Assembly: GCA_004123355.1 (NCBI GenBank) | Contig: SCHM01000005.1 | Coordinates: forward strand, 744,001 to 808,000 | Reading direction: 5' to 3' | DNA length: 64,000 nucleotides | From: Amphirosellinia nigrospora | Taxonomy: Eukaryota > Ascomycota > Sordariomycetes > Xylariales > Xylariaceae | In this document: piece after piece, positions 1,851 to 63,500 of the stretch | How positions within the stretch are numbered: position 1 is the stretch's first letter | Layout: each line of letters opens with the position of its first letter | Notes under the pieces: model-generated | Database searches by the model: none | Told to the model about the DNA's origin: nothing | What the model saw: only the letters and a program-made list of their open reading frames with translations | Position numbers and translations under genes: made by a program

Positions 1851-4800
1851 ATGGATGCCGGAGCCGCTGTGGGGGTAGTCTCGCTGGTCCTCCAAGTCTC
1901 TCAGGGTTTGCTAGATTACTACCAAGCCTGGGAAGGTTACAGCGATGATGTACGACAGGCCTATAATTGCATTGCCGACCTCAACAAGACATTTGCATTG
2001 CTAGATAAAAGGTTGCGTTCCATGTCCACTGTGAACCCAGGAAGCAACGTACTGAATCGAGTCGCGGAATGCCTGACGGCCTGTACGGGTGAAGTTCAAC
2101 ACCTCGAGAGAAAGCTGATGAAGCTGCACAAGCAGGATCCCAAAGGGTTTACCCAGAAAGCCCACGCTGGTGTCCTACGGGCGTTCTATCCCTTTCGCGC
2201 AAGCACCCTCGAGAAACTCAAGGAGATCGTCCAGGATTTAATGGTACATTTGAAGCTTGCGATACAAGTGCTGCTACTAGAGAATAGTGTAGAAACAGAC
2301 GAAGCTATCGCCCAAATCAAGGTTGGCGTCGATAACACTAACACCTTGGTTGCTAAAATCCACACAACTACGCTGGATACACAAACACAGACAGTAGCCG
2401 CTGCTGCTGGTGTCGAGATGCTTTTGAAAGCCGAGGAAACTGAACAACGAAGGCAGGTACTTAGAGCGCTCGAAGCGCCCAACCCATCTATCGAACACGA
2501 CGAAGCACGCAGAAAGTACGAACCTGGTACCGGAGACTGGTTCTTAAAATGCCAGGCCTATCAAAATTGGGTAACTGGTCTCTCCCACGTCTTTGGCTTC
2601 ATGGGAAAGCAGGGTGCTGTAAAACCGTGTTATGTTCTACAATTATTGAGGATGTGAAACGTCAACTGCCTAACCAACCCGGAAGTGTCCTTGCCTACTT
2701 CTACTTCTCTTTCTCAGATACGCAGAAGCAAAGCTACACCAACCTTCTGCTCTCCTTGGTTACCGAGCTCAGTCGAAGATGTGCCATACATCCAAAACTG
2801 CTAGCAGCCTACAACCAAACCCCTGAAAAGAAGCCTGACACGAGCATTCTTGAAGAAGTCTTGATTGATCTGCTTCGAGGAAGCCGGACCTCTTATCTTA
2901 TAATAGACGCACTAGACGAATGTCCAGAGGGCGGCAACCAGAGGGAGCAAGTTATGCAGGGACTAGAACGAGTCGCAAATGAATGCACCGAAACACGAAT
3001 TCTACTCACCAGCCGCAAAGAAATGGACATTTTGGAATTTATGCAGACGTGGTCGGTAGTCCAGGTCGCAGTAAACGAGGACAGCGTAAACGCGGATATA
3101 GACATCTTCGTTAAGAATACACTGGCTACCAATAAGAAGCTTCCTTCTCAAACTAAGGAAGAAATCGAACGCATGTTCCACCAGAAGTCGGATGGAATGT
3201 AAGGGACCTTGCTCTAATCACCCTTCTATATCGTGAGCCGTAATGCTAATATATCTCGCAGGTTCCGGTGGGCTGCGTTACAGCTCCAATCCATTCTCAA
3301 CCTGAAGATACTTCGCCCTAGATATATTTCCGCTGCGTTACGTGAAATGCCACGAAGTCTCGATGAAACTTATGAGCGTATTTTAGGCGCCATTGATGAG
3401 ATGTATTACGACGAAGTTCGGTTGGCCTTGGAGTGGCTCGCGTTTAGCGAAAGCCCGCTGTCTGTGGCCGAGGTGGGGGAGGCGTGCAGCATCCGCCTGG
3501 ATGAAACTAATGAGCCTTTTCTCGACGAATGCAACGATGAAATCATCTCCGGACTTCTCAGCGTTCTTTCGCCTTTAGTTCTTATTGAGCCAGTACCCGA
3601 GGCCGAGCGAATGCAAGCTGTGAACTCTCATCCGATGAAGTTCAGCTCTGAGCATTACGTCCAACGCATCCGCCTTGCCCATTTTTCTGTGAAAGAATAC
3701 CTTATGTCCAGTCGCTTGCGAGCTTCTCGGGCTTCTAGTTTCGCGCTTGGGAGCAACGGTCATTATGATCTGGCTCAGAGGTGCTGTGCATATGTGCTCT
3801 ACTTCACAAGCCAATGCAATGTAGCAATTGGGGAGCGACCACCTCCTATTGAAAGTAGCAATCGAGGAATAAGAGATCCAGAATTCATGCCGGACTTAAT
3901 ACCCTCCTACCCGCTATTACTCTATGCTGTCTCCCATTGGACAAGGCACCAAGGACTCGCGGAAAATGGGACAAATGCCCCTCCGATGAATGTCAATCTT
4001 CATCTCAAAATACTACAGCAGGGAAAAGTAAGAAAAACATGGCTCTTCCTCGTGGGCGACATGATAGATTGTGGCAGAGACCGCAATATATCGTGGTATT
4101 TCGCAGAAAGTGACTGGCAAGAAGGCACAAAGGCTATTTACTGGACGTCTCTCCTTGGATTCTATCACACGACATCTATGCTCTGCGAGCAAGCCACTCG
4201 TTCCGATTTGAACCACGTTGCTGGTCATTTTAAAACCGCTTTAGAAGCTGCTGCATTTGCAAAGGCAGTGAAGGTTGTGGGAAGGTTGTTGGAGGCGGGT
4301 GCGGACGTCAATCCTAAGGACGGAGGGCCTAGCCGGGCCCTTATACACGCTTCAATAGGCGGAAACACACAGATTGTCCAGATGCTGATCGACAAAGGCG
4401 CAATCATTAACGCGCCGGACGAGCTTTACTCCAGTGCCCTTTACTATGCTGTATATTGGCACAATGTTAATGTAATCAAGCTTCTCATCGATAATGGTGC
4501 CGATCCAACAGCAGCGGACGAAGATGGATCGACACCGTTACACCTAGCTTGCTCAGAAATTTACCTTGACGATATAGTGAAGCTACTCCTCGACAAAGAT
4601 CCCGACTTGACAGTAGCAACCGAGGATGGATGGACGCCGCTACATTGCGCTTCAAGTATGAACCACGCTGAGACAGTTAAGCTTCTCCTCCACAAAGGCG
4701 CCGATCTAACGGTAGTAACCAAGAATGGATTGACAGCGCTACACCTGGCTTCGTGGAATGGCCACATTGATGTAGTGAAGTTACTCCTTGACAAAGGTAT

Positions 4801-5721
4801 TGAAGTGAATATAGACCAAGATGGATGGACAGCGCTCCACTTTGCTTCATATAGTAACCATGTCGACGTGGTTAAGCTACTCCTCGATAGGGACTTTGAC
4901 ATAAGACTCGACAATGACGGATGCACACCTCTATACTTAGCGGCGGCCGAAGGCCATGTCGATGTAGTTAAGCTGCTCCTTGACAAGGGCCCTGACATGA
5001 GACCCGACAAAGACGGATACACACCTCTATTTGCAGCGGCGGTTGAGGGCCATTTCGATGTAGTTAAGCTGCTCCTTGACAGGGACCCTGACATGAGACC
5101 CGACAATGACGGATGCACACCTCTATTTGCAACGGCGGTTGAGGGCCATGCCGAAGTAGTTAAGCTGCTTCTCAAGAATGTTTCAACGGCGGATTTTTTG
5201 TGCAGAAGTTACAGTGGTCGGAGTCCAATTTTCTATGCGGTCATGACAGACCAAAATAAATTCTTCGATGTGCTTCAAACCGAACGACAATCAAACAGCG
5301 GGAACCATTTTGGTATAAGTGCATTATCCATTGCTGCCCGTTGTGGCCGGGAGCAGATAGTGGACCGGCTCCTTACTATACCGGATATTGACATTAATTC
5401 TGCAGACAGCTGTGGTCGCACGCCGATTTGGTGGGCTCTCAAACAAGGTCACGTTGAAATTGCCATCCGGTTGGAACAGCACGCATACCACTCGGCTTGT
5501 GCACTTCAATGGCCAACATACCCCTAGGGAATCCTGTGTTGTTTAGAATTAGTGGCAGATGGTGCGATATATGTCTGGCTAGCATGGATGAACCGTACTA
5601 TGGTTGTGAATACTGTGACGGTGGTGATTTTGATGTTTGTCGAGAATGCTATAAGCTTGGAGGTCATTGCCTGGTTGAATCCCACACACTAACACCTTGC
5701 AAGGAAGATAAAGATCTATAA
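1851..5721 (+). CDS. NLR-type STAND protein: HeLo-like domain, NACHT, ankyrin repeats, ZZ finger
   Basis: Fungal NLR-like receptor of the kind linked to non-self recognition and heterokaryon incompatibility. Residues 1-200 resemble the HeLo-like/STAND N-terminal domain (hydrophobic start, helical). The NACHT domain follows at about residues 250-430, with LWLHGKAGCCKT as Walker A and YLIIDALDEC as Walker B. About 13 ankyrin repeats span residues 775-1185, and a ZZ zinc finger (CDIC, CEYCDGGDFDVC, CRECY) lies at 1212-1262. One intron (3199-3261, GTAAGG to GCAG, branch TGCTAAT) joins the NACHT end to the next exon in frame. The frame breaks twice, near 2580 and near 5490, each equal to loss of one base; with both allowed for, the length is about 1,269 codons. 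Walker A has Cys where Gly is usual. It could be a decaying gene or an intact gene with sequencing deletions; conserved motifs on both sides of each break favour the second. Confidence 0.85.
3199..3261 (+). other. Intron of the NLR gene
   Basis: This 63-bp intron has a GTAAGG donor, TGCTAAT branch-like site and CGCAG acceptor. Splicing restores the reading DGM-FRWAALQLQS, the motif expected at this point of fungal NACHT proteins. Confidence 0.85.
4800..5180 (+). repeat. Near-identical 99-bp tandem repeats coding ankyrin units
   Basis: Successive 99-bp units encode 33-residue ankyrin repeats with the core HVDVVKLLLD. The last units (about 4900-5180) are almost identical at DNA level, for example the shared stretch around CACACCTCTATTTGCA. 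Such homogeneity points to recent duplication or concerted evolution, as is known for the fast-evolving repeat domains of some fungal NLRs. Confidence 0.8.
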
Positions 5722-10483: not shown

Positions 10484-11628
10484 ATGGAAAACGGCAGCTC
10501 CATCGACACCATGGGAACCAAACATGAACACCTTCATGAGCACATGAGCCCGGAGCTGGCCATGAACAAAATCAAGACGGCAGGAAGCATTTCTATCTCG
10601 CCGGCTCTGTTGAGAAACTATACCTATCGCCACAGAACCAGGTGAAGGGAGATTTGAGGCAGAGATTCGGGAACCCAACCGCGATGTTCGTAATCAGCTC
10701 TCCCTATACCCATCAAGGCTGTTCAACATCATAGCTAACTAATCGCAGTGGACTAGCAGGTCATGTCATCTCCATCGGCCCCTTGCATGTGATCTCATGG
10801 GATGGCGAGGAGCTGGTGGCAGTGGTGCAGCTAGCATGTAAGTATCAAACCGAGTGGCACACCAAAGATCACTCAAGAGCCTCCCACGTTGTGATGAAGA
10901 CCTAACAAAATTCACTTAGACCCTTCTTCCTCTATTTCGGTGGCGTTCTCATGACGTTGGGTGGACTTCTCGAGTTTTTCCTGGGAAATACATTTCCATC
11001 TGTCGTCTTCGTCTCATTTGGTGCCTTTTGGTTAAGTTATGGAGGCTTGTTACTTCCCCAGTTCAATGCGTATGCTGCATATGCGCCCCCAGGTGCGACA
11101 TCTGTAACAGAAGGACTACAGACTCAGGGCTTCAATGCCAGTTTTGGTAAGTTCAACCCTAAGTATACAGGAAGACTACATTTGAAACAATTAGCTAACT
11201 AGTTCACCTCCTAACATAGGCTTCGTCACGCTTTCTATGACAATCCTGTGTCTCATGTACTTCATCTGCTCGATACGGACCAACATCGCCTTCGTCATCG
11301 TCTTCCTCACCCTTATTCTCACATTCGGTTTGATCACGGGAGCATATTGGGCTCTAGCCCAGGACTACACAGGTAGTGCGGGGTTTGCCGCAAATCTTCT
11401 TGAGGTGAGTGATCAAGAATCTCTTCAAGTTGATCGATTCGAGCCGTTACTAATTTACCTGGGCAATATTAGGGTGCCGGTGCCGCTTCTTTTGTCTGCG
11501 CTGCAGCCAGCTGGTGGATTCTGTTCAGTCTCATGTTCGCCTCTGTCGATTTACCATTTAGCCTCCCTCTCGGCGATCTCAGCACCAGAATTCCTAGCGG
11601 AAGCAGCCGTAAGCTTGCGCAAGATTGA
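10484..11628 (+). CDS. Gpr1/Fun34/YaaH family transporter (acetate/ammonia type)
   Basis: Six-helix plasma membrane transporter of the AceTr family, which in fungi moves acetate and has been linked to ammonia export. Five exons fit: 10484-10685, 10749-10837, 10920-11146, 11220-11404 and 11473-11628, all with GT/AG ends. Family features are visible in order: SISPALL and EKLYLSPQN at the N-terminus, GDLRQRFGNPT before helix 1, CDLMGWRGAGGSGAAS, GGLLEFFLGNTFPSVVF, SFGAFWLSYGG, and the C-terminal FASVDLPFSLPLGDLSTRI. The frame is broken twice, near 10614 (CTGTTGAG, where CTGTTTGAG would be expected) and near 10796, each equal to one lost base. With these allowed for, the total is 287 codons, the normal family size. 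I therefore favour sequence error over a true pseudogene, but cannot exclude decay. Confidence 0.85.
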
Positions 11629-12900: not shown

Positions 12901-12963
12901 GGACAAAACGACGCCGTTGTCGCCATCTGGCTACAACGATATATAAACTCCACATCTCCGCGA
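12901..12963 (+). repeat. Dispersed repeat, copy A
   Basis: About 63 bp starting GGACAAAACGACGCCGTTGT matches copy B at 14357-14419 in direct orientation. The four differences I see are all C/T or G/A changes. Confidence 0.8.
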
Positions 12964-23800: not shown

Positions 23801-24554
23801 TCTAGGCCATATTAGTAGGCATCGGCATAGTGGACGTAGTCTTCTTCAATGCTATGTAATTGGATCTATCTAGAATTTGATAGCCCGGGCAGTATGAATA
23901 AAACCCTAGCATTCAAACCCGCCGAAAAGGCCGTAACGGCCATGGTATCTATCTACATGACAGGCCATATAGACCGCGATGCAAAACGCACGGCCTAAAC
24001 AAACAAACAAAGTGAGACGAAACTACAATGCAAGAATTCCGTGTTGTCACCTCTGAGATTCTTGCCTCCTGGATATGTCCCCGAACAAAACGCCAAATGT
24101 CCCCTAATCGAAATGTGCCAGATGCGAAACCGGTTCCCACCATGCCTCCGCCCCTAAACGCCCAACGCTCTCGCTCTCGCCTTGCTCGAATGCTTCTCAC
24201 ACATTTGTATATCTCTCTCTCTCTCTTCGAGACTCCATCATCGCCTCCCGCGAACCGGCGACCCGCGCGTGGGCGACCCATGCACAGGCGTGCCGCGCGC
24301 AGGGGATCCGTGTGTGGCCGACTCCGCGCGGGGGATCCCCTCACGGGGCTCCGGCGGGGCTGCTCTCGCGCGAGCTCTTGCTCTCGAACTCCTCGACCAT
24401 GGCGCGGACGCGCCGGGCGGGGGAGGTGTTGGCCGTGCTCCGCAGGTGCTCTCGCTGCGGTAGTCGACGCTCTTCCGCAGGCTGCTGTTGTCGGCGCTGG
24501 CGGCAGCGGCGTGGTGCGTCTTCGTCTTCCTCCCCGTGCGCAGCGCCGGAGGCG
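17867..24554. other. 6.7-kb gene desert
   Basis: No open frame here has a recognisable family motif, intron structure or length beyond chance. The region around 21040-21330 is open on both strands for about 80 codons but neither product is recognisable. A CT-rich stretch lies near 24210-24230. Part of the region right of 17866 must be the WSC promoter. Confidence 0.45.
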
Positions 24555-27500
24555 TCAGGATGGGGTGATCTGGAGCGTCGAGGTACTACCTGACGGGCGC
24601 TCGTACCGGATCGCTTCCGCCGACATCATCTCCGCGTCGCTGTGCTGCGAGAACATGGACACGGGGGTCTGCGCTGCGCTGCGGGCCTGGTGCAGCTCTG
24701 CCCCCAGCCGGTCGATCTGTTCCTCTAGTGTTAAGGTTGAGAGGTTGGGTTCTGTCTTTGGCATGTGTCGCCCGTGGTGAAGTAGTGGAGGTCGTCGTGG
24801 GAAATCGGACTCGGCGGGGCGTGATGCCGCGTGTGTTGGTGTCCGTGGCTGTGGAGGCTGTGACATCTGAGATGTCTCGGGGAAGTCTTGGTCGGCTTCG
24901 ATGCGCTCCCACTCCGCATCTAACCCGTGGCTTAATGTATCCTTCTCAGCGCCGATGCGGCCCTGGCTCGGGCCCGCGGCTCGCCCTTTGTCCTCGTCGC
25001 TAAACGGACTTTTTGTCGTCGATAGAGGACGAATGGGAATTTCCAGCTTCCTCGTTATTGGTACACCTCCATCGAGCGGTTCTTTACCCTTTCGCCGTTG
25101 CTCCCCTGATTTTCTATGATCTTCCCCTGTTGCTGGGTCCACCAATACGACATCTTGCTCGCTTATCAAATCTGGTTCGGCATTCACGACTCTCAGGGGT
25201 TCCTTGGGTACAGTGAACATAAACTGTACCAATCGTTTCTCAACGGCTTTTTCGATATCCCAGTCTTCGTCATCGGGGTGTGGCCCCCGTCCTTCCGCTC
25301 CACGCACCGGCGCGTACCGTGGTGTACTTTGGCTCGGACCTGCGGTATCTGATTCCCAGGCAGCTCGGCCACTTTTCCTGCGCAAGAGGCCGTCGGCTGC
25401 GATGCCACCTATCCCGCCCAAGCTTCCCAAGCGCGCCTCGAAGTCATTGGTTTCGACGACGTCGGGTTGAAATGGACTGTTCTCGTCAAGATCGCTGGAC
25501 GGACCCGGGTCGGAGCTAGTATTGGTGAAGACACGACGTAGACTGCCCAGCCAGCTGCGCCGGGGCTTATCCTTACTTGGGCTCCCGGGTTCCTGGGGTA
25601 CGTCTTCGACCGCGTCCTCCTCGTTCCTCTCCCGGCCAAAAAGCAACCCCGGCCCCTCAGCCTGGAGGTTGGGGAAACTGCTGCGCGCCGTGTTATAACT
25701 TGGTGCCGAGCTCGAGCTACTGCTACCCCCTCGGCCTTCTGTGGTCGCAGCCAGCGCTGCGGCGACCGCAACGCCAAAGCCGGGGCGTAACTGGCGAAGT
25801 AAGGATCCTGAGCGACTCAAGTTGCTGCGGTTGGAATCGGAGATATTGCTCTCGGTGCGTGACCCATTCTCGTCAGCGACGGCATTGAACCCACGGCGCG
25901 AGGGCGATGCCCCCCCAGCTCCGGCTGTGGCAGTGGTGCGGTTAGTAGTAGCACGCCCGCTCAGCAGTGCGTCCGCCGCATCTACGTTGGTCATCCAGTC
26001 TTGGACATCCGGATCGGTTACAGAAGCGCGATTCCGGTCTTCGGACTTGGTGTTTGTGAAGCGCGGCTGGGGCCGGGAAGGAGATTGGGCGTTCGCGAGT
26101 TGGTGTCAAGAACGGATCCGAGTACGCGCCACTATCGCGTCTCTCATCACGGACCGGACTTATCGCTTCTTCGCCTATATCTCCAGTGTCATCCTCATCC
26201 GCTTCAATTATGGGGTTCATACCCATTGGGCCCCTTGGGTTTGAGACTGGTTCGTAACCACCGGAAGAGGATGATTGGTGCTGCCCTCTGGCCGCCCGTG
26301 GAGCAATCTGCTTTCTATTTACCTGCACCATCGGGGGCGCTGGAGGTGCCATATCCCCAAACCAGTTATGGCGGCTGTTGTCGAGGCTGGCTCGCCCAGT
26401 TTGTAAGCTCTGGTAACCAAGTGAACGGTCACCGCGCGCGTATGGATCAGGGCCGCCTAGATACCAGCTATTGTCTTGGTCGTGTTCCGACGGGAATTCG
26501 TCGTGGCCAAGGAATCGAGAGTTATCTTGGGCGAGGGCGCGGATCGTCGAGTCTCTAGCTTTCCGCTCATCCCGATTTCGTCTGCGATAGAATAGATAGC
26601 CCAGAATAGCCGCGACTAAGAGAAGAAGTCCAAGTCCTAAGCCAAGGCCTAATTCGAGACCGAGTTTCTGGCTTTGGCCGTTATTTAGGTTGGTCGTGCT
26701 TCCTCCCGCAGCATTTTCGGCATAAGATGGGTTGGTGTAAGTATCGGTCCATGTCATTGAAGTCAGGTTGAGGAATGTTGCCGTATCACCGTTACTCCGC
26801 CGCTTTTCCTGGCTCCCGGATGAAGAGATTGTATGGCCTCCATAAACCATCATGACATTGCCAGGGAGAAGTGCGGCACCATGGCCATAGGTTCCATCAC
26901 CGAAGGTTGGGAATCGGGAATGGACCATTGCCATTCCCCGTCGCCGCCATAGTCCGATCCAATTTGAAGAACAGCGAGCTGCGGGAATGCGGCCTGGGTA
27001 AGATCGCCGACCCAACCCCCGTATATCAAAAGCCGTTCCATCCTCATTCAAGACAGCCGTATGGCCGGATCGGCTGTCCACGCTTTCGACATCACTCTTC
27101 AGGCCAAATCTGTGTTCGGGGCTCGGATCCTGTCATGGCGATATCGGAAACAAAACTCCAGCTTTCTTCCGGAAGACTCCAAATCGCGACTGTGCTCATG
27201 TTGATAAATGCGTATTGCGTGTGTCCGCCAAGCAAGACGTAGTTTATCTGCTGAGTGATGACGCTCGACTTGTTCGAAAAGGACGGACCCAGACTGGTGA
27301 AGGTAAAGCCAGCTTCCGAGATTGGCGGACCGCTGCTATCTACTGGATCGACTGTGTAGCTCCTAGCTCCAGTCGTTGAGGGGAGATCTTGACCATCTGG
27401 TTCGTGTACGTCGCGTTTGACTGGGAAGTGGTCGGATCCGAGTCATTGTTGGGCACATGCCGCCGTACACGTAAGTATTAGCCGGCGATGTCATCGGCTC

Positions 27501-28003
27501 CAGTACGGTTGAGAAGCTAAAGCCAGCACCCAAGAAACCCGGTCCCATTTTGATCCATTTAGCATCCTCGGCTGGCTCGATGTCTTCCTGGTTCCATGAG
27601 TTTGAACTAACACCGGGAGCTGAGGGGTTGAAGGACCAAATACTGGCGCCAGTGGAAGTTGAACAGTCGCCGGCATACACCAGTAGCGATCCATTGTCGG
27701 CGAGAGAGGGCACAAAGGCGGTGCTGCTGCTCTCTAGGAACGGTAAACCAGACGATAGGGTGCTAAGCGATAACGATGAAGCCACCAAAGTAGCAGAAAT
27801 GTTGACGGCTAGTAGGTTAACGGAATTGTCTTGCGGCGAGAAGATATAAGCAACTTCTCGGCAACATTGTCCCCAGTCTGTCCTGGCTTCGACGTAGGTA
27901 GGAAGATGCTGGTTGGAATGTAGGGTAACGTTCGTGCTGCGACGGCGGCAGTGAGACAGGCCCATACTGTTAGCAATATCGAGATGCGGGTAGCCGCTTT
28001 CAT
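24555..28003 (-). CDS. Kelch-type single-pass membrane protein with long cytosolic tail
   Basis: Fungal surface protein with a kelch/galactose-oxidase-like ectodomain. The start ATG gives a signal peptide (MKAATRISILLTVWACLTAA). Ectodomain pieces in order are LPYIPTSIFLP, VAYIFSPQDNSVNLLAVN, TYVYGGMCPT, NYVLLGGHTQYAFINMS, SRSGHTAVLNEDGTA, LIYGGWVGDLTQAAFPQLAV and TYGHGAALLPGNVMMVYGG, matching repeated kelch strands. A helix of GLGLGLGLLLLVAAILGYLF with a YRRR stop follows near residue 450. The tail of about 700 residues is disordered (SYSDPFLTPTRE-type motif, VQDWMTNVDAADALL). The frame changes at least eight times, near 27860, 27447, 27366, 27118, 27100, 27030, 26925 and 26085; most equal one lost base. 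The motifs before and after each change are intact, and the total is then about 1,150 codons. No intron is needed. Confidence 0.8.
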
Positions 28004-35322: not shown

Positions 35323-38160
35323 ATGAGCCAGCAAGGTTCGGCGCGTGATGCGCCAGCTCCAGCGTCTGCGGCGAGTACGTCTTGTTGAACGACGGTATAC
35401 ATCAAACCAGTACTGATTGTTTTGTACGCTAGGTTTATATCTCACATTGGCTCCCGTGGCCCTCACTGCTGCTGTATACTTATCCATTTTCTTGGTTCTC
35501 CGTAAGAGCCAGAGACGTTTTTATGCCCCTAGGACCTACCTGGGAAGTTTGCGAGAGAGGTTAGTTCGATTGGTCCGTTGCTATAGGTCTCTTGAGTCGC
35601 AATGCTGACTTGCGTGCGGGTGTGTAGTGAGAGATCGCCTGCCCTCCCAAACGGTTTATTGAACTGGTTTGGCGCATTTTGGAAGATATCGGATTACCAT
35701 CCGCTCCAACACCAATCGCTCGATGCGTACCTATTTCTCCGATTTCTTAAAATTTTGATCGTTATTTGTTTCGTGGGCTGCTGTATCACATGGCCTGTTT
35801 TATTCCCCGTCAACATCACCGGCGGAGGCTCTGCAACTCAGGTTGACTTGCTCTCTTATGCGAACGTCAACAAGGACACTCAGTATAACCGATACTATGC
35901 CCACGTATTTATCGCCTGGATCTTCTACGGATTCGTGATGTTCATGGTTGTGCGCGAATCCATTATGTACGTCAATCTGCGTCAGGCGTTTCTCTTATCG
36001 CCTATGTACAGCAACCGAATTTCCTCACGGACCGTACTTTTTGTTTCGGTGCCCGATAATTATCTAGACGAGGCTAGACTGCGCAAAGTGTTCGGTGAGT
36101 CGGTCAAGAATATCTGGATTGCTGGAGAGACGAAGGAACTTGACGACTTGGTCAAGGAACGTGACAAGGTGGCCATGAAGCTTGAAAAAGCCGAGGTCAA
36201 ATTACTAAAGCTCGCCAATGCTGCACGTCTCAAGGCGATCAAGAAGGGTGCCCCGGATGAGAGAGCCGTGGCTCCTGCAGACGCAGAATCGGGAAGTCTG
36301 GCTGCCCGATGGGTACCGCCCAAGAAGCGACCATCCCACAAGCTCGGATTCTTGGGTTTAATTGGTAAAAAGGTAGATACGATTACCTGGTGCCGAACCG
36401 AGCTTGAGCGCCTCATTCCCGCGGTGCAGAAAGACCAGGCTGCTTATCGCGAGGGAAAATACAAGAAGATCAACAGCGTTTTCGTCGAATTTACGAACCA
36501 AGCTGACGCAGAATCCGCGTACCAAGTGCTGGCTCACCACCAAGCGTTGCAGATGACTCCCAAATACATTGGGGTGACACCAGGCGAAGTGGTTTGGAGC
36601 GCCCTAAAAGTGTCATGGTGGCAAAGAGTGATTCGAAGATTTGCTGTTATTGGGTTCATCAGCGCTCTCATCATCTTCTGGGCTATTCCCGTCGCGGCTG
36701 TTGGTGCTATCTCCAACATCAGCTACTTGGAGGAGAAAGTCTTTTTCCTCCATTGGATTAAGTTGATTCCTCAAATTATTCTGGGTTTTGTGCAAGGTCT
36801 TTTACCATCGGTCCTCATGGCCGTCCTCTTGTCCTTGGTGCCAATTGTGATGAGATGTGAGTTACTAGTCTACTAAGGTACTAACAGCATGATACTGATA
36901 CGAGAATAGTATGCGCAAAGTTATCTGGAGAGCCGAGTCTCTCCCGCGTTGAACTCTTTACTCAGAACGCCTACTTTGCTTTCCAGGTCATTCAAGTCTT
37001 CCTAATTACCACCCTGACTTCTGCCGCCGCGACTGTGGGAGCACAGATTTTCGAGCATCCGGAACAAGCCACAAGCCTTTTGGCGGAGAACTTACCCAAA
37101 GCATCCAACTTCTACATTTCTTACTTCATCGTTCAAGGTCTGGGAATTGCCTCTAGCGTGCTCTCTCAGGCTGTCGGCTTTGTTATCTTCACTGTGTTCT
37201 ACAAATTCCTGTCCGGGACACCTAGAGCGTTATACACCAAATGGGCCAATCTGAGTGCTATCTCATGGGGTTCAGTGTTACCCGTATATACGAATATAGC
37301 CGTGATCAGTGAGTCTTCTCCTCGTTTTCATATGTTTTATAGTAAGTTGACTGTTTGAAGGTATTACGTATGCAGGTATTGCGCCGTTGATGTTGGGCTT
37401 TGCTACTATCGGCATCTCTCTCTTTTATCTGGCATGGAGGTACAACATCTTCTTTGTCACAGACACCCGGATTGATACCCGTGGCCTCATCTATCCTCGT
37501 GCTCTGAAGCAGCTCTTCGCTGGTGTGTACATCGCTGAACTTACCATGATCGGCTTGTTTGCAACATCCGTGGCGATCGGCCCACTCATTTTAATGGTTA
37601 TCTACCTCATCTTCACTATCCTGTTGCACGTCACAATCAACAGCGCTATTGACCCTCTTCTGTATAATCTGCCCAGAACTCTGGCTGAAGAGGAGGCTGC
37701 GCGTAGCAGGCACGGATCTGTCGAGAACGGCGAAAAGGATGCGCACCACGCCGAGAACATGAGCAATGGAACCTCGTCCAACACCGCCAGCAAAAAGAAA
37801 CTTGGAATATTCACTAAGTTTTTCAAGCCATGGGAGTACTGTGACTACGAGACAATGCGGAAGCTTGTCCCACAGAACGACGTTGATGTTTACAACGTAT
37901 ACGCTGACGAGGTCGAACGTGATGCTTATTACCCACCGTCAGTCACTAGCGCAGCGCCGTTGCTCTGGATTCCTGAGGATCCCTTGGGCATCTCGAAGCA
38001 AGAGGTTCATGACACGAGCAAGGTCATTCCTATCACTGACGAGGGCTGTACGCTCACGGATAAGAATAAGCTTGAGTGGGACACGGAAACTGTCCGTCCC
38101 CAGTGTGGGAGGAGAAGATCTACTACTAATTTGATACCCAAAAACATCACCGACCATTAA
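35323..38160 (+). CDS. CSC1/OSCA-type osmosensitive calcium channel (RSN1/DUF221 family)
   Basis: Multi-pass cation channel of the CSC1/OSCA/TMEM63 family, gated by osmotic or mechanical stress in characterised members. Five exons: 35323-35374, 35433-35559, 35628-36856, 36910-37308 and 37376-38160. All introns have GT/AG ends and the joins are exact, giving 863 residues with no break. The order is: N-terminal helix (LYLTLAPVALTAAVYLSIFL), helices near residues 105-125 and 150-170, a cytosolic PHM7-type domain with charged helices (about 190-375), then the seven-helix RSN1 core including FWAIPVAAVGAISNISYLEE and LPSVLMAVLLSLVPIVMR, and YPRALKQLFAGVYIAELTMI. A soluble C-terminal tail follows, with CDYETMRKLVP, typical of the PHM7 external/C-terminal domain. 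The single codon-level fit across 2.6 kb contrasts with its frame-broken neighbours. Confidence 0.93.
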
Positions 38161-44476: not shown

Positions 44477-45502
44477 ATGTTATTTACGAAGCTCCACTAC
44501 TTGCCCACGCTATACTCCTGCGCTTCAGCAGTCAGCGCAGCAACAACTACCTCTGGCCATCTATTCCCAGCTCACACCATTTTCCAGTTCAATGAATCAG
44601 GAACATGGCTTGAGAATATCGCGGTACGGGCGAACGGAGATCTACTCGCGACGATGCTCAGCCCGACCGCGTCCCTGTACACTTTGAAGAAGCCCTATGC
44701 CGCCGCGACTCGAGAGTTTTCGCTCCTGCATACTTTCGACAACGCCACGGGCCTGCTGGGGATTACAGAAATTGACCACGACGACTTTGCCATCCTCTCG
44801 ACTCAGCTTATAAACGGCTCGAGTTCCGTTCCTGGGTCTACCACGATCTGGGGAGCCTCTTTTAAAAATGACAAATTCACCACCCGAAAGATCGCTAGTG
44901 TCCCCGACGTCTTGGTGCCAAACGGGATCACTTCGATCCCGGGTTCGACTGCCGTGCTCCTCGCTGATAGCATCGGGGGCACCATCACCCGCTGCGACAC
45001 GCTGATAGGGACGTGCGAGACCGTCTTAAAACGCAACGAGACCGAGGCGGCCCCGGGGTCTCTCAACCCTGTGGCAATAAACGGGATCCATTACCGGGAC
45101 GGATACGTATACTGGAGCAACTCGAACTCCGTCTCCATCTTCGGGATACCCGTCGATAAGGGAGGTTATCCGGCCGCCGACGCAAAGGTGGAAACCGTGG
45201 GGAAGATCAACAACGCCTCGTTCATCGACGACTTCGCGCAAGACGCGGACGCCGGGAGGTTCTACGTTGCCGCGGGGCCCGAGAACACGATCGTGGAGCT
45301 GCGGCGCGATGGCTCGAGCCGGGTCGTCGCCGGCTCTCCCGCCGAGCTCACCGTTGCCGGATGCACGGCTGCTGCGTTTGGGAGGACGGTGCGTGATGGT
45401 AGGGTTCTTTACGTGGTGACGAATGGTGGCCTCATGGCGCCTGTCGATGGGAAACCGGAGCCGGCTAAGATTGTGGCGGTCGATACATCTGGGTGTGTCT
45501 AG
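44477..45502 (+). CDS. Secreted SMP-30/NHL-like beta-propeller protein
   Basis: Intronless, unbroken gene of 341 residues. I choose the ATG at 44477 because it begins a signal peptide (MLFTKLHYLPTLYSCASAVS, then AA); upstream in-frame codons lack an ATG. The remainder resembles the six-bladed propeller (SMP-30/gluconolactonase/calcium-dependent phosphotriesterase superfamily) common in fungal secretomes: WLENIAVRANGDLLATMLS, GLLGITEIDHDDFAIL, VPNGITSIPGSTAVLLADSI, NPVAINGIHYRDGYVYWSN, IDDFAQDADAGRFYVAAG and VLYVVTNGG. Blade edges repeat the pattern of a small residue, Gly, then a hydrophobic strand. Catalytic metal ligands are not certain, so enzyme activity is not claimed. Its codon use is GC-rich compared with the flanks. 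Confidence 0.82.
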   Translation: MLFTKLHYLPTLYSCASAVSAATTTSGHLFPAHTIFQFNESGTWLENIAVRANGDLLATMLSPTASLYTLKKPYAAATREFSLLHTFDNATGLLGITEIDHDDFAILSTQLINGSSSVPGSTTIWGASFKNDKFTTRKIASVPDVLVPNGITSIPGSTAVLLADSIGGTITRCDTLIGTCETVLKRNETEAAPGSLNPVAINGIHYRDGYVYWSNSNSVSIFGIPVDKGGYPAADAKVETVGKINNASFIDDFAQDADAGRFYVAAGPENTIVELRRDGSSRVVAGSPAELTVAGCTAAAFGRTVRDGRVLYVVTNGGLMAPVDGKPEPAKIVAVDTSGCV

Positions 45503-47566: not shown

Positions 47567-49647
47567 ATGCCAAAATACTTCTTTACAGACTTGCCGAAGA
47601 TGTCGGATACCATGGCGAATCCAGGGGAACAAGTTCATGCCAACACAGGAGAAGAAACAGTTACTAACGACAATCCAGTCATTGTTGGCATCTACGGACT
47701 TCCAGGATCCGGCAAGTCTTTCCTGCTCCATCAACTAGAGGAGGAGCTTGGAAAGGAAGACTTCGAGTTCTACGAAGGTTCCAAAGTCATTGGATCTCTT
47801 GTGCCAGGCGGACTAGACAACTTCCGAGGGTTGCCGGAAGAAGACAAGGTCACATGGCGCCAACTCGCCATCGGCACGATAAAAAAAGAATGTGCAGAAA
47901 CCGGAAAACTTGGACTTGTCACCGGACATCTCATGTTCTGGTCGGAAGGAGATGACGAGAGACACTCGGTGCATACACCTGAAGATCTAAACACATATAC
48001 CCATATCATTTATTTGGTGTTCCGGCGGACGTCATTGCTCAACGCCGCGAAGATGACACGGAGAGGAACTGTCCCCAGTCTTCTATCGATCACTTACGCA
48101 ACTGGCAAGACGTTGAGATAGCCGCGATGCGCCAACTCTGCCGCAACCACAACATATTGTTCTGCGTGCTTGATACTCAGGACACGCTGTTGACCAGGGC
48201 ATCGCAAATGATACGTGACTTTCGGCATCATACCGAGACCTATAACCTATCTTGTGCAGAGACTAGATTGGATGAAATTCTTGGAGTTGATACGAAAATT
48301 AAGATAATGTTGGTCATCGACGGGGGCAGAATATTAGCTGCCGAAGATACCGGGAACATGTTTTGGGATACCACTTCTCGGGCTGAACAATATACACTGC
48401 AGTCGAAGGACTCGTTCGGCGGACCCATGGGCTACACTTATACGGATTTCCGTCAAGCCGCACTCCTATGCGAGGAGGTTGCCAGCGAGGAGGAGTTCGA
48501 GAGATTTTGCATTGCAGTTGCATCAGCAGTCACCATCCATGACGAATTTAGACTTCTGCTGAAGGTCGTTGCAGAGCAATATGATGTAGGCGCGGTGGTC
48601 GTGACCTGTGGATTGCGCCGGTTCTGGGAAAAAGTCCTAGAGAACGAAGGCCTCTCTGGAACGGTCAAAGTGATCGGTGGTGGACGTATCTCCGATGGTC
48701 TTGTTGTGACCGCCGATGTGAAGGCTGCTTTAGTCTCTCGTTTGAAAGACGTCTACCGCATGTACGTGTTGGCGTTTGGCAGCAGTCCGCTGGACCTACC
48801 CATGCTGAATCAGGCGAATGAGGCTATCGTTGTGGTCGGCCAAGAGGATACCAGAAGCAAGACCATGGATGCTGCGTTAATCAAAGCCATTGAAATTGAC
48901 GGTCTTCTAGCATGTCAAGTACTGATACCCAGCGATGCGCCACCCCGGCTGGATTCTGATAAACTTCCCGTTACGCAGATCAGCAAGCTCAAGGTAGTTG
49001 ATTACGTTCTCCGACGCCATCGTACCAAGGAGAACCTCGACGCACCAGTTCGCCATTTGACGGAGAAACACGCAACCAAGCTCCTATTGACACCCGCACC
49101 TAACGCATTAATCAGAGGCCATCGCCGCATTGGATGGTACCTTGCAATAGAGACCCTCCCGCACTTCCTTGGTTTGGAGGAATACATGATCTCTCATCTG
49201 CAGGGTCGCCTAACCAGCGGTTTTCGACTACAAAACGAGCAGCACACCTTGATTGTCGCGCTGATGCGCGGAGGAGAGCTCATGGCGTCCGGTATCAAAG
49301 ACGTCTTACTTAATGCTATGTTGATGCACGCCAACGGCCCGGACGATATACTGAAACATCACCTCGATGATAAACGCGCCATCATCCTAGTCGACTCCGT
49401 CGTGAACAGCGGAAAAACGGTAGTGCGATTCGTTCAACACATTCGCACGCTTCATCCCACTATTCGCATCATCATCGTTGCTGATGTTGTCCAACACCAA
49501 TGCGTGAAAGAGGGTAACCTTGCCAGTCTACTCGCCAGCGATATGCAAACCAAAGTCATTGCGCTCCGTCTTTCCGATAACAAGCCTACTAGGAAGGGCA
49601 CCACGGATACCGGCAATCGATTATTCAACACGACGCATTTGACATGA
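47567..49647 (+). CDS. P-loop kinase / HAD-like / phosphoribosyltransferase fusion protein
   Basis: Three enzyme-like modules in one chain of about 693 residues. Residues 40-190 form a P-loop NTPase (VIVGIYGLPGSGKSFLLHQL; later VPADVIAQRREDD) like small-molecule kinases. Residues 225-440 resemble the HAD superfamily: IMLVIDGGRILAAEDTG for motif I, VVVTCGLRRFWEKVL, and YVLAFGSSPLDLPML for the acidic motif. Residues 480-690 match uracil phosphoribosyltransferase-type folds: LVALMRGGELMASGIK-type strand and AIILVDSVVNSGKTVVRF as PRPP-binding loop. HAD motif I has Gly in place of the second Asp, so phosphatase activity may be lost. One base appears missing near 48022 (TTGGTGTT, with GAT expected), which splits module 1. 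No introns. A nucleotide salvage or regulatory role is inference only. Confidence 0.85.
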
Positions 49648-49879: not shown

Positions 49880-51338
49880 CTATGTAGTCCGAAGGAAAGG
49901 AAAGCCTAACGTAACCAAATTATGCCATGGTATGGTATCAGACGCATCAATTGCCGCCCAATAAGACTTCAAGGCATCGCGCACGTGCTCTCGGAAGTTG
50001 GGTGAGAAGCCGGCAAATGTGGCGATGTTAGAGAACCACTTCTCCCGCCCGCCGCCGTCTTCTGTCAGCTCGATACAGGCAACTAAAAGCGGCAGGTCGG
50101 TGCATCGGACAGGTTGCTTCGTGACGTTGAATGTCATCTCGATCTGACTTAAAATGCTCATTGACAAGACTCGTGCCGGCGCATCATCTACACCAAAGGG
50201 GCATCTCAGGCGATGGGCCACCAACAGCGCGGCCGCTTTCATGCTCTGCGCCTGGCAAAGCATATGGGCCACTTCGATTACATTGAAGCGAGTTGTCAGG
50301 TCGTCGGGCACTGTGGGTTGCCATTGATAAATGCATTGCTCGATGGCGTCGAGTTCTTTTAAGCTGTCCGTGTCGTCCTCTTTGTCATGCGCTACTGCAT
50401 AGCCTACTTTACAGATGTCGTAGAATAGGGGCAACAAGGTGCCACACACCCAACGTGGCGGTCGGCGTAGGGCTCGGGAGGCGGCCTGAAGCGAAATGTA
50501 GGTACCGCGCAACTAAACATGCAAGCACGAAGCTCCCACATGACTAGACAGCTCAGGAAGATACGCAGCTCCGGCCGGGCCGGATCACTGACGGAATAAA
50601 CGGGCTCGATCAGCCCAAGGTCCGCCTACAGATGGCCATCACGTCGTAAAGCCGCAATCTCACGGCGAATGTCGAGACTAGCGCGCCGAGCATCAGACAG
50701 TCGATCATAGTATCATAATTTTCCACGCGCAGGGAGGTCAACACGGCGATGGCGGAAGAGGCGTAGCGATAGCAGGCGCTCAGATGCCTTGGATTAGGCT
50801 GCTCGTTGTCGACGTCGCCCACCCACGAGATGGCACATGCCAGGAGTGCATCCATGAACGTCGTCCTCGAGAATAGTATGTGCGGGATGACTTGTCCGCG
50901 CATCTTTTCGCCAAAGCTAGAGCTCACGGAGAATACATCCGACGTGCGGCTGTGGCACAGGAATTGCTGGACCAGACGCTGTTCATCCGTTGACAGGTCG
51001 CCTAATCCCACGGTTGGGATACACTTTGGAATCATTGTGGCGTGGTTCCCACCTTGCTTCTGGAGCCCGGTCCAAAGAGATAGTATGTGGCCATCATCAG
51101 GTTTGCCGACGCTAGCTCTCCGTGCTGGCCGGTTCTCCGGGGACAATCGCTTTCCTCGCGCCCCCGGCTTCCGCCCAGGCCTCCCTTTTGGCCGGACAGT
51201 CTCACAGACATGTTGTAGCCGGAGGCAGCGCTCACACCGTTTCTCGTTCGGGACCCATTCACAGCGCTCTTTGATCGCGTGGCATCGGTCACACGCTCGT
51301 GGCGGTTCTAAGCCACTGCCATTTACCCAAAAAGACAT
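49880..51338 (-). CDS. Zn2Cys6 fungal transcription factor
   Basis: Gal4-type regulator. The ATG at 51338 is chosen because the open frame before it has no other ATG. The zinc cluster CDRCHAIKERC and CERCLRLQHVC (spacing Cx2C, x6, C, x8, Cx2C, x6, C) is at residues 17-46, followed by a basic RPKGRPGRKPGARGKR linker. The rest matches the alpha-helical middle region of such factors: QQFLCHSRTSDVF, FMDALLACAISW, ACYRYASSAIAVL, ELRIFLSCLVMWELRACLF, FRFRPPPEPYADRHVG, CGTLLPLFYDICKVGYAV and the C-terminal WHNLVTLGFPFLR. Two one-base losses lie near 50612 (after RRTLG) and 50455 (after DRHVG); the sum is then 487 codons. It lies next to the fusion gene and near the amidase, which it might control, but that is a guess. 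Confidence 0.87.
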
Positions 51339-51731: not shown

Positions 51732-51733
51732 TA

Positions 51734-53269: not shown

Positions 53270-55343
53270 TTATTTCTTATAGCTTTTTAAACATCGGTCG
53301 ACAAGGTCGGCTGTAGCCAAACACTCTTCGTCGCGCATGCGGCTAGTGAATATCTGGATCGAGCATGGAGCGCCTTCGACAATTTCTGGGTTATCTAACA
53401 ATTTCCAAATTAGCACATAGTCTAGGTACAATACCGATGCTACCGGTTTACTTACATGGAGGGGTGCCTTGGCCCAACTTCGCTACGAACGGCGACTCAC
53501 TCTTCGTTGCCTGCCGGAAGGGTATTATACATGCGGGATACTATGCCATTCCATTAGCTACGACTCAATGCGGTCAACTGATTTTTCATGGCTCATGCAA
53601 CTTACATCGAGGACATTCAAGAAAGCTGAGTAAGCCGGCCAGCAAAATTGGTCATGCTCTATAGCTGTGTTCTGAGCCGACGGGCAGATGACCGCATCCA
53701 GCTGGTGCTTAACCCATAATTTGCGCCAATCTTCAGCAAGCCTTTCACGTTGACTCTGCAGCGCCCCCAGCTTTTGGAAATTATCCATTGCGCTAAGGTC
53801 CGGTACAAAGTTCCATTGGATACTTCTTGCTTGCTCGGCGAACATGCCCATCGATGGCGTAGCCGGTTCGCCACTAGCAGCTATAATCTCTCCAGGGGTA
53901 CTGTCGAGAGAGAGTAGCCCGCTGGCGATCTGATTCGCCTCCGCCACGTGACATTCGGCGGCATCTAGAAGGACCACTTCATGGCCTTGAGACTGAAGTA
54001 TTTCGACTACTTTTGCAATGGTTTCCTTCACGGGTGGGTGAAGTGGGAACAAGGGATCCTCAGGGACGAGTCCCAGGCGTAGACTCATCCGCGATAGGAC
54101 ATTGGTGCTTCTCCATGGCACGTCGATAACCGTTGCGTCGTACCGAAATGGCTTAGCATCGATCACAGCTTTCATGAAACTTTGAAGTGTTTCCACATCG
54201 TTGGCTAACGGGCCAGCAGATGGCAGAATAGGTGGGATGCCCTCCCCGAAAGGCATGACTTGTCCCCAAATGCAATTCTGCTTGATGATGGCTTGAATCC
54301 GTACGTCCCGCAACACAATGACGGGATACGGATGGATCCTGAGATAAGATTGAGCAAGGTGACACTCCAGACACCTTGTACTTGGTTTACTTACCAGCAA
54401 GATCAGTGCCAACCCCGAGAGGTGATCCCCGGAACGCGACAAGGGCCCCTTCCCCACCACTTGACCCTCCGGCCGTGAGCACTATGAAGCCCGGGTGTTA
54501 GATAGCGCATATAAGAGTGAACCTCTCGCGAGCGACGAGTTTTGGAATACTTACTAGTATTCCATGGGTTCAAAACACGTCCGAAAATGTTGTTATCGGA
54601 CTCGACGGCCTACGAGGTTATTAGTTGTGCTTCGTCATCAAAGTATGCGATATTCAACATACCATCAACACTTGGGGACATTGGTCTTGACATAAAGGAC
54701 AGCTCCGAGGCCGAGCAGCATGTCTACTAGAGCCGAATTCTCGCTCGACGTCGTGCTGAGATGGGAAACAGCACCTATGGTGGCCTGTGTACCCTTGACC
54801 TGGTATGTGTCTTTCAGGCTTACAGGCAATCCATGGAGAGGCCCCGCTAGCTTGCCCTGAGCGCGCAAGTCGTCGAGAAAACGCGCTCTCTCCTGGGCTT
54901 CTTCGAAGAATGTTTCGGTCAAACAATGTGTCTTCTCAATCCGTTAGCGATCCATTAATAGTATATTGTCGTCTTCATTGACTATAGTGATCAGTCGGAG
55001 CACTTACGAGCTGCTGTGCGATGGCCGCTCGTTTGGAGAAGGCCAGCGTGACTTCAGCGGATGTGAATTTGCCTGTTGCGAGGCTTTCAAGCAAACTTGA
55101 CACGTTATAAGATTCCGTGATTTCAAGCTCCCTCTCCGTCATGATACCGGAGCGACGGGGTATATCTAGAGAAATGAGGTTGGTCTTGGTCGTGGATAGG
55201 TCCGACTGTCTTGGGAGAGTCTCCAGTAGCGACTGGGTGAGAGTCCATGCTTCTGGTATCGCTTTTTGACAAAGTGATCGCTTCTCAGCCACCCTACTCT
55301 GCCAATCTTGAGCCGAGGTCGACGATGGAATTTGGTGAGCCAT
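53270..55343 (-). CDS. Amidase signature family enzyme
   Basis: Hydrolase of the amidase signature family (acetamidase/fatty acid amide hydrolase type) with a Ser-cisSer-Lys triad. Seven exons: 55343-55008, 54931-54663, 54609-54555, 54481-54395, 54338-53606, 53540-53456, 53394-53270. Visible motifs: catalytic Lys in LHGLPVSLKDTYQVKG, the glycine- and serine-rich signature LTAGGSSGGEGALVAFRG, the nucleophile in VGTDLAGSIRIPS, then CCGTYGFKPSSSR, and QVMPFGEGIPPILPSAGPLA. The C-terminal exon reads NPEIVEGAPCSIQIFTSRMR, where family members have GAPxSLQxVGRR. Two single-base losses, near 54680 (CCCC, five C expected) and 54255 (GGGG, five G expected), break the frame; with both, the exons sum to exactly 564 codons, the normal size. 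No signal peptide, so probably cytosolic. Substrate unknown. Confidence 0.9.
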
Positions 55344-57378: not shown

Positions 57379-57565
57379 TCTCTTTGAATGGCGTTTCGGC
57401 ACCAAGTACATAAAAAGTGGAAAAGCGGGACTAAGTAGATAACCAGATGAGCGAATCGGACTTTTATTCAAATAAGCGTACCTAATCTAATTCGTCCATC
57501 TGGCTATTTGCTTAGCTTCCCTGTCCACTTTTCATGTACTGGTGCCGAAACGCCATTCAAAGAGA
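57379..57565. mobile_element. Foldback MITE, copy 2 (TA target site)
   Basis: A 187-bp relative of the element at 51734. The left end TCTCTTTGAATGGCGTTTCG and the right end CGAAACGCCATTCAAAGAGA are exact inverted repeats, flanked by TA. The interior shares GGAAAAGCGGGACTA, AGATAACCAGAT and TTTTATTCAA with copy 1. Arms of this copy match each other less well inside than those of copy 1, so it looks older. Confidence 0.87.
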
Positions 57566-59253: not shown

Positions 59254-60564
59254 CTAATAATCATAGCGGTAGCACATAACATCTCCGGAGAGAGTGTTGA
59301 TGACTTGTCCAATTGTGACGTCAGGTCGAATGCCAGCCATGTTAATGACCGTATCCAGGGTCAGGGGCACACCATTAACATCTGTACCGTCGATGGAGGC
59401 GTACCGGTTGTTCGGGTCCGCTAGCTCCCAAATACGCCAAGCGCGGTCGACGAAGGTGTGGTGAAAGTAAAAGAAGGGTTCGGAAGGCGAAGCATACACA
59501 TCCGCCATCACACCACCAACACCATTGTGGCCATATCCGTGGGGTCTAGATGCAAAGTCAGCACATCAAAATCATCGACCCGGGTAAGTAAATGATAACA
59601 CTTACCCGTACTCGAAGCATGTCTCGAAGTCCGCATAATCGTTGTTAGACAAACAAGAATTGACGTAGGCGGTACTGCACTGCGCAGTGTCCGCAGAGTT
59701 GCCTTGCCGGCTCAGACAATGCGGAGTGTTACCACTGCCGGGACCGATGTTGCAGGTAAGTCCGGCGAATTGGCCGTCGGTCACTATAACACTCGAGTTA
59801 GTCATTCTGTGCACGGCCTGTAGTTGTTTACAAACGTGGGGAACTTCTAGAACATGACTTTCGTCTGAAGGACGCCCCCATACTCTAATATTTCTGTTAA
59901 AGCATGACTGGATGAGGGAAGTGCTTACCGCAGTGGCTTGTGGGACCGAGTATTCCGAGCCATGCAGAGCTGAAGGCGTCTGAGGCGGAGAAGGCGCCAG
60001 AGTGCTTGGTCTCGTCGAACCAAAAGAAGGGCGCGGTGAATCCGCACTCGGCGCGCAAGACTTGCTCAAAGGTCCAGATGAAGTATCGGTGCCAGGGGAA
60101 GAACTTCTGGTTCTGGTGCACGTTCGGGGTGTACATCTGATGTAGACGAGCGAAGTCCTCCCATCTGCTCTTAGACCCAGTAAATCCCCTGACGGCGGCT
60201 TGCCCATCAGACACTTGAAGGCATTCATGAGAGCTTGCCTGTTCGCGACCGAGTAGTTGTCCCATTCGTAGCGGATGTTGGGGCTTGAAGCACACGAAGC
60301 CGCCGCGGCTGCATTTGTCGCAAATAATCCTGCCGTCTTGGCCATTTCTTCGGGTGATGCCGTATCATTGTAGGTGGCCGGGTCAGACTTTGCTTTGGGA
60401 GCATGCGCGAACTGCTGTACAGCTTGCTCGAAAGGCACCAGTGTATGGTGCCCAGTGATGTCCAGCAGAGGAGCTAAGACATCCTTGAGATCCCTACTTT
60501 GCTGAGGAAGTCCTAGGACGACCGTGGCGCCACAAAGGGCCTGGGAGAGTAAAGAGAATCGCAT
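59254..60564 (-). CDS. Secreted tyrosinase-like copper monooxygenase
   Basis: Type-3 copper enzyme (tyrosinase central domain) that hydroxylates or oxidises phenols. Exons 60564-59929, 59783-59606 and 59545-59254 have clean GT/AG introns. The signal peptide is MRFSLLSQALCGATVVLG. All six expected copper-binding His can be placed: CuA in FARLHQMYTPNVHQNQKFF and PWHRYFIWTFEQVLR, CuB in GPHGYGHNGVGGV and FFYFHHTFVDRAWRIWE. Extra Cys between (TCNIGPGSGNTPHCL, CSTAYVNSCLSNND) suggest disulfides suited to an extracellular enzyme. One base appears missing near 60185, just before FTGSKSRWEDF; with it the exons sum to 369 codons. There is no long C-terminal lid domain, unlike classical melanin tyrosinases, so this is the short secreted form. 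Physiological substrate is unknown. Confidence 0.92.
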
Positions 60565-63500
60565 GTTACCCTCTCTTGCACGATAGGTATGTTGGTATCA
60601 AAGAGGATGATCGCAGGCCGACCCAGTTTATAAACGAGTGACTAGTCGCTGTCGAGGGCTAGGAGCGAAGTGCCAGGATGTAAGGATCTAGAAGCCAAGA
60701 GCCAAGACATGGAAGCCAGTTTGATCGGGATCGCGACGGCATGGCGGCGTATTTAAGAACAAAGAGGAACGGATACTCGGCTCGGTTTCTGGGCGCGATT
60801 ATCTGGAGCCTACAGGACAATCCTACGCTATGAAATTACGAGGACGGAAAGGATTTGTTCGCCCAAGTGTAGGCGTAATTTCAAATCAGCACTAAACTAT
60901 TGCTGTACGGGAATGGTAGCGCGCCACGAACCCGATAATCCGATTCTAGACCTCAAAAAGAACAGTGGATACAATCTTTGTCCACAACAGTTCTGTAATT
61001 GTTGCATTTACTCATAATATGCGCCGTACGAGTGCAGTACACTAAAGTTGGCGGTGGCACTAAAGGACAGTCAGGCTGGTAGGCATCTGAAAGCTGAGGA
61101 AGAAAATTCAAGGGGTAAACGGCACAAATTCGAACAAAATCAGCTGACTACAACAAACCCAGGTCATAAAGGGAGGGCACTTGTGGACCCCAAGTCACCC
61201 ATGCGCTTCCAGGTTCGGTATACCCAGTAGGTGTACGTATCCCCAGATGGTAGCTACCGACTATGGTTAGTACTTGTAGATCCTGGTCTGGTCTAGCTAA
61301 AGCCCTTCGAAGCGATACAGAAAACACCAAAAATGTGACCAACCCGCTCGTGCTAAATTCTCCAAGCTCCAGCTTCCGGGAAAAGAAAAGTTAGACACCT
61401 CACAGCCATTGTTTAATTATTTGACGCAGGTGCTACCCCTATCGTATAGCGGCCAGCAGGGCGGCCGACCTTTCCGGCGCCATGGTATTCGTATAGGAGT
61501 TGGTTGCAGATAGCGGTACCAGAGTACGTAATATGCAAAATGTTGCGGCTGGGGTTAGTTGGTTGGTCTACCTGCACGTACTCTACTCTATTGACATTGT
61601 GACCACACCTACGGTACCGTACTTAGCTAACCATAAACAGTCAATTAAAGTTAAAGCTGTTTTCTAAAATAAAATAGGGAAGGTGTATCCAACAATAGCC
61701 TACTTTAATAACATACAGGAGGAGCTATAAAGCGCCGTAACAAGTCAGCTTACACGACGATACGATACGATGTGGCATGATCGATGCACGATGGTAATAT
61801 TGAAGCATTGCGCGGCCGCGGTTATTAGACCCACACGAGAGGTCCCTTTTTCTTCGGTAGGGATTATCCCATGCGGCGCCCCCTGAAAGGGAATAATATG
61901 AGACGACTCACTGCCTCATTCGATGTGAGCTGTGACCCTAGGTGATATCGGGACATCCTAGTGCCTAGTATGGAATATTGTAACGTCATATATGTAGACC
62001 TGTCATATATGTAGCATATAGCTCCCTATTTAGCTTCCACACAAGATAGTTGGTAGTTTATTTACCCCGCCGTCGGGCCAGAGCAAGAGAACACCAAGCT
62101 TCCAGCCTAACGCACGATGAGTGACCAGCGGACCAGGGCACTAGTATGTAGTGTACCCGTGCCAAGGTAAGGCGCACACTAGTGGCGTGTATACGATAAC
62201 CTGCAGGTATGACAGCAGTGTAGATATCTAGACATTCTTGATGTCATGGAACTAGGTGACGTAGCAGCGGACAGCAGGAAGCGGTGCTTCTTCTTCTACA
62301 CTACTTGACCCTGCGATAGATAGAAACCCCGCGTATCCAGTCTATCAATTAACCTTCTCTTTAAGGGCCTAGTCATCAGCCGTACTTACACTATTAGTTT
62401 AATACAAAGGTAAAAAAGACCGCAACCTTGAACATGAAGCTTGGTCAACAGCTAGCGCTGCAGTGAGAACCAGCCCTCTGGGATGGCAAAATCACAGGGG
62501 GTATGGATCAAGAAAACGGGCAACTATGATCCCATTCGCTTCGTCATTTCGATAGTTGCGCCCTTGGACACGGTGAATTACAGCTCGAGCGACATCCATA
62601 GGACTTACTCATGGCCGTCAGCTTGGTGAGATTTCTGCGCTTTCTCAGTCACGTTCATATAGACATAAGCGTCATTAGATTATCTTTAACCCACCAGCTG
62701 CGGGCTACAACAACATCGAAGCCTTGTCTTGTCGGGCTCTTCCGTAAACACAATTGAATCCATGAGTTCAACTTGTGAGAGTCAAATTCTGGCTTGTTCC
62801 GTTGCCTTGGATCCCACTGCCTGTAGCCTCGCAGCCCCTCACAACAGCTAAGCCAAATCAGTCTTGCCGGGGGTGGGATAAGCGAGATATGCGGCAGGCT
62901 AGAGCTCCAGAAATCCCAGCCTACCTACTTCTTATGTACATCATCATCACTGGCGATAGTCAGCGAGAACTGCCGATGCTGATGCGGTTTTACTCGACAC
63001 GGTAGTTACGCCGACGAACAAACGAGACTACACCGCTTCAATATGATTACGGCCGTGTGACCTTGGTCCCGGGGGCGGATTGCACAATAGTACCTGTGCT
63101 AGGGGCGCCTCAATGTGTAATCGCCGTCGTAGCTGAACCTATAGTCGACGTTAGTAGGGCTATTAGAGCAAGCCACCAGTTGGACGAAGCGTGCAGCTTC
63201 TCATGGCCACGCACGTCATCGCATTTTTATGCGAACGGCTATTCACTAAGAAAGAAACGTGGGTATCAATTACCTTGAGCCACGTGGTTCATATTTTCTA
63301 CCCGATTGCAACATTCTCGTGTTCTCCGGTGGCCCAGAGCAACCCCCGGCGACAAATCCGGTCTCGCGTTCTCGCATTACTGTGACGAGATCAAATCCGC
63401 CCCCCGCAAGGCCAAAATGTCCCGAACAATTATATGCGCCGATACGAGCTGTAAGCTTATTACTCTGCGACCGAATTGGGTCTATACCCGGTGTTGGTAA

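Follow-up and report, generated by a model that had tools for sequence, protein, structure and literature searches.

The window analyzed here (64,000 nucleotides [nt]; bases 744001-808000 of contig C7 in an assembly of 48.1 Mb and 11 contigs) carries a series of protein-coding genes, several of which change reading frame internally. We followed these changes with a frame-tracking coding model, the training set of which consisted of long open frames from these same sequences, broken loci among them, and with Pfam scans of the window genes, which were done on stop-free pieces.

On the forward strand, an NLR-type gene (1851..5524; NACHT-like, with ankyrin-like repeats recognized by eye) contains one break at ~2588-2624. 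Here, Pfam NPHP3_N matched in one frame over profile positions 1-35 (weakly, E = 0.025) and in another over positions 24-164, the spacing at the joint is -1, and the model placed the break at 2625 in one run and at 2648 in another. The P-loop of this gene (window 2590-2640, + strand) reads GKAGCCKT, such that the glycine preceding the lysine, usually invariant in this motif, is replaced; this could be a substitution error or reflect a truly altered receptor. A GPR1/FUN34/yaaH-family transporter (10484..11625, + strand) is matched by Pfam PF01184 in two pieces, with one model break near 10577. Similarly, a fusion of P-loop kinase, HAD, and uracil phosphoribosyltransferase (UPRTase) domains (47567..49644, + strand) has one break near 47987, where AAA_17 is matched in one frame and HAD and UPRTase in the next, and on which the model agrees.

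The remaining broken genes lie on the reverse strand. A kelch-like gene with a GC-rich part (24050..28200), the kelch matches of which are weak and below the cut-off, received seven model breaks, and a coiled-coil gene (29154..32493) received three (two at another setting), on the evidence of the coding model only. For a Zn2Cys6-type regulator (49883..51338; Fungal_trans_2 match, weak Zn_clus match), the model called two breaks near 50625 and 50443, and at another model setting these frame changes were called introns instead. The amidase (53273..55343) changes frame at ~54271-54241, where an intron would not fit, and, by our reading of the pieces, again near 54660; Pfam PF01425 was matched over positions 15-102, 125-153, 151-175, and 181-388, with the frame changing between pieces. 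Ordinary introns seem to account for some of the changes; between profile positions 175 and 181, however, the DNA gap (~30 nt) is too short for one. In the tyrosinase (59257..60564), the copper-site piece (59900-60364) lies in a different frame from its flanks, with Pfam PF00264 positions 1-73 matched in one frame and 67-163 weakly (E = 0.03) in another. The model called no break in either the amidase or the tyrosinase, where the profiles change frame, and thus undercounts.

Consistent with the claim of the earlier note on this DNA that the CSC1-like, WSC, vma7, and propeller genes are unbroken, the model called no breaks in any of the four. Of these, the CSC1-like gene occupies 35263..38157 (+ strand) and the propeller-like gene, a single open frame, 44477..45499 (+ strand); both names are taken from that note. 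At 399-523 on the reverse strand, intron-allowing ARAGORN reported an intron-bearing tRNA (labelled Gln, ctg), where neither the default tRNA scan nor Rfam reported anything.

Across the 28.7 kb that it predicted as coding in the window, the model called 19 breaks in total (0.66 per kb). Fifteen of the 19 fall in genes that had been named as broken beforehand, and the other four, which have no other support, lie in two short, low-scoring predictions (39208-39981 and 52170-52666). When calibrated on 56 unbroken exons (61.5 kb), the model made 2 false calls, and of 56 single losses that had been planted it recovered 44 (to within 60 nt); these exons were single, unbroken, intron-free, and partly in the training set of the model, with intron-rich genes not represented, so that the true false-call rate may be higher. 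These data demonstrate that the frame breaks of the window exist in the given sequence, beyond chance. At least eleven genes had been described as broken, and our analyses bear this out for part of them: the NLR, amidase, and tyrosinase genes by Pfam profiles; the kinase/HAD/UPRT fusion by both profile and model; and the kelch (7 breaks), coiled-coil (3), Zn2Cys6 (2), and Gpr1-family (1) genes by the model. In contrast, Nur1 received no model breaks and its Pfam DUF2418 match is unbroken, and the breaks described for the ML-domain and conserved hypothetical genes were not confirmed.

Breaks per gene were distributed more unevenly across the window than expected by chance (P = 0.011; 0.009 in a second computation), largely because of the one GC-rich kelch gene, in which C/G runs of at least four letters number 40 (next highest gene, 16). 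With C/G runs taken as the exposure, P values were still 0.036 (runs of four or more) and 0.020 (runs of three or more), so some unevenness remains. The proposal that coverage was uneven may hold, but these counts do not establish it.

Break rates in the window and elsewhere in the assembly

For comparison, we examined 10 kb stretches placed arbitrarily (seven on contigs C1-C6 and three on C7/C8), 30 tRNA-flanking loci, and nine chaperonin genes, with the same model at the same setting. The C1-C6 stretches yielded 16 breaks in 26.0 kb of coding sequence (0.62 per kb), the C7/C8 stretches 8 in 9.6 kb (0.83 per kb), the tRNA-flanking loci 13 in 19.3 kb (0.67 per kb), and the chaperonin genes 11 in 14.7 kb (0.75 per kb). 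The 95% limits of all rates overlap, and the window did not differ from the C1-C6, C7/C8, and tRNA-flanking samples pooled (P = 1.0). At two stricter settings, rates per kb were 0.47 and 0.23 in the window, 0.35 and 0.12 in the C1-C6 stretches, 0.32 and 0.11 in the tRNA flanks, 0.59 and 0.37 in the C7/C8 stretches, and 0.50 and 0.29 in the chaperonin genes; on these small counts, the window lies above the C1-C6 stretches and tRNA flanks, and not above the C7/C8 stretches or chaperonins. Thus, the window is ordinary for its assembly, and the breaks are not peculiar to it. A search of the MFS family, in which 9 of 415 candidates were scored, gave no usable rate.

One 10 kb stretch, L041 (G000:C5:2500001-2510000), was left out of model training and of the rate counts because of its GC content of 8.4%. 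Throughout its length (1-10000), it contains very many long A/T runs, whereas four other 10 kb stretches that we measured have 47-53% GC; it is perhaps a centromere or a heavily mutated repeat block. An apparent depletion of long A/T runs in the window, which at first seemed about threefold rarer there than elsewhere, proved to derive largely from L041 alone: runs of six or more number 44 per 100 kb in the window, a value bracketed by those of the four other 10 kb stretches (30 to 60).

Frame breaks in chaperonins and other housekeeping genes

Our chaperonin family search, in which all 25 candidates were scored, resolved these into ten genes. By NCBIfam models, the eight CCT subunits and HSP60 are each present once, and the tenth gene is a distant CCT-like domain. 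CCT subunits are essential in fungi. Six of the nine genes are broken (gamma, delta, zeta, eta, theta, and HSP60), with the profile resuming in another frame; more specifically, profile end and restart at the joints are 183/182 for delta, 329/329 for zeta, 170/170 for HSP60, and 323/324 for theta. The model called no break in CCT alpha, beta, or epsilon. Within CCT eta (L066, ~1205-1366, - strand), the eta profile is matched in a second frame by an inner segment (E = 0.0021), while the frame around it is open; two opposite shifts may cancel here, leaving no stop, and such pairs would escape checks based on stops.

Likewise, DEAD-box helicases that we take to be HAS1-, FAL1-, and PRP5-like, together with a presumably Aurora-type kinase (the names being given by recognition), are broken inside conserved domains. 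As these joints were chosen by eye from 40 helicase and 143 kinase matches, they serve as illustrations, and no rate was derived from them. Two Metallophos loci were left out of the evidence. In a tRNA synthetase search, no joint could be distinguished from an intron; several stops occur in two of the matches.

These comparisons bear on the possibility that the genes are truly decaying, i.e., that the region lies on a small contig where genes released from selection gather frameshifts. Such decay would suit the many window genes that look dispensable (NLR, tyrosinase, transporter), as well as the altered glycine of the NLR P-loop. However, it would be expected to concentrate in dispensable genes or in one region, and no such concentration was found: rates are similar on other contigs and in the CCT and HSP60 genes that were found once each. 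Moreover, conserved profile positions are retained on both sides of all 13 joints that we mapped (see below), which also argues against decay, and we consider this explanation very unlikely.

Shape of the lesions

Thirteen joints were mapped by profile ends, 12 of them elsewhere in the genome and one in the window. Eight joints had a spacing of -1 and three of -2; one had +1, and the last had -5 (or +1), such that a net loss is certain at 11 of the 13, one fits the gain of a single base, and one is ambiguous. The description of the breaks as losses of one base therefore applies to most mapped joints (8/13) and does not extend to the three at -2, the one at +1, or the one at -5 or +1. Runs of four or more equal letters occur within 9 nt of 8 of the 13 joints, where the expectation based on coding sequence is 3.5 (P = 0.0125). 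When runs of three letters were counted as well, the excess was not significant (12 of 13 joints versus 9.6 expected, P = 0.11).

The same joints allowed us to weigh ribosomal frameshifting, programmed or tolerated, acting genome-wide in the manner of Euplotes ciliates. Reading continues immediately in the new frame, and short letter runs on which slippage could occur are present at some joints, both of which would accord with such frameshifting, as would the four joints (4/13) at which the upstream frame meets a stop no more than 9 nt from the last matched residue. At the other nine, the upstream frame stays open for 12 to 111 nt beyond the last matched residue. In PMC10235951, frameshifting in Euplotes is described as occurring at stop codons; with nine of 13 upstream frames open, the shifts seen here are not generally tied to stops in the manner of that account. 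In addition, the 13 joints, compared by eye, share no common motif, which further disfavors a programmed signal.

Losses in untranslated RNA genes

We examined 50 of 58 tRNA gene matches; 20 of these 50 rank below the first 30 by score. Six of the 50 (L032, L083, L085, L086, L087, and L088) equal a sibling copy minus one or two bases, with no substitutions; the absent letters vary, and one tRNA is short of two bases. L032 has only one sibling (L014), so for this gene the siblings alone cannot tell loss from gain, and L082, where the difference is more complex, was not counted.

The 5S rRNA genes (L092-L124) are dispersed over seven contigs (C1, C4, C5, C6, C7, C9, and C10) and belong to several divergent sequence classes. 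At least 7 of the 33 copies lack one base within a run of C or G. Among 13 near-identical copies of one class, we counted, by eye, ten losses and no gains. A single run of five C accounts for six of the losses and a single run of four G for two (these eight in seven copies), with two elsewhere. The difference at the C run, present in 6 of the 13 copies, may in part be true variation.

Since tRNA and 5S rRNA genes are not translated, no translational mechanism can explain their losses. That these genes carry the same losses as the coding sequences, together with the open upstream frames and the missing motif, makes genome-wide frameshifting a vanishingly unlikely account of the breaks.

Insertional RNA editing, in which missing bases are restored posttranscriptionally, has a parallel in the mitochondria of Physarum, and it would cover messenger and structural RNAs alike, as observed. 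However, sibling tRNA or 5S copies have the base in their DNA, the absent letters differ, and one tRNA lacks two. We know of no insertional RNA editing system in a fungal nucleus, and a literature search for Physarum editing, with the terms used, yielded no paper. We consider it extremely unlikely that editing is at work here. More broadly, the assembly might be accurate and a fungal nucleus might carry thousands (by extrapolation) of true small losses, which are repaired posttranscriptionally or tolerated in translation; messenger, tRNA, and 5S genes alike would then carry true losses. This reading, too, we hold to be exceedingly improbable.

The breaks as highly probable errors of the assembled consensus

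Taken together, our data indicate that the frame breaks are almost certainly errors of the assembled consensus and that they occur genome-wide, because other samples of the assembly show such losses at a similar rate, even in genes and RNAs that should be indispensable to the fungus. Most likely, the genes of the organism are intact. The suggestion in the earlier note that uncorrected deletion error underlies the breaks is thereby strengthened, both by the similar rate across samples of the assembly and by the same lesions in chaperonins found once each and in tRNA and 5S rRNA genes. Under this explanation, bases would have been dropped throughout the assembly, mostly singly and preferentially in one-letter runs, and then left uncorrected, so that each sample shows ~0.6 to 0.8 frame changes that can be detected per kb of coding sequence. 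The source would presumably be long reads without accurate polishing.

Our result is a warning rather than a discovery. Gene models, pseudogene counts, and claims of gene loss that are based on this assembly should not be relied on until checked against accurate reads. The control that we used requires no reads and can be applied elsewhere: a comparison, inside one assembly, of chaperonins present in single copy and of tRNA and 5S genes present in several.

Comparison with known systems

As in Euplotes (PMC10235951), many genes here need frame changes to be read through. Unlike in that account, most joints here lie away from stop codons, and untranslated RNA genes are affected. A closer parallel is offered by long-read assemblies. 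According to the reports on Kastor (PMC12007338) and Polypolish (PMC8812927), residual indels in such assemblies are mostly short, are tied to one-letter runs, and fragment genes; for instance, in the former, of the 1234 pseudogenes annotated in bacterial draft Pss508 (23.3% of genes), 1101 are frameshifted only. The genomes treated in PMC12007338 and PMC8812927 are small and mostly bacterial, whereas ours is a 48.1 Mb eukaryote and, by gene content, a fungus. Here, too, short indels at letter runs break genes, and by this analogy the lesions look like residual long-read indel error.
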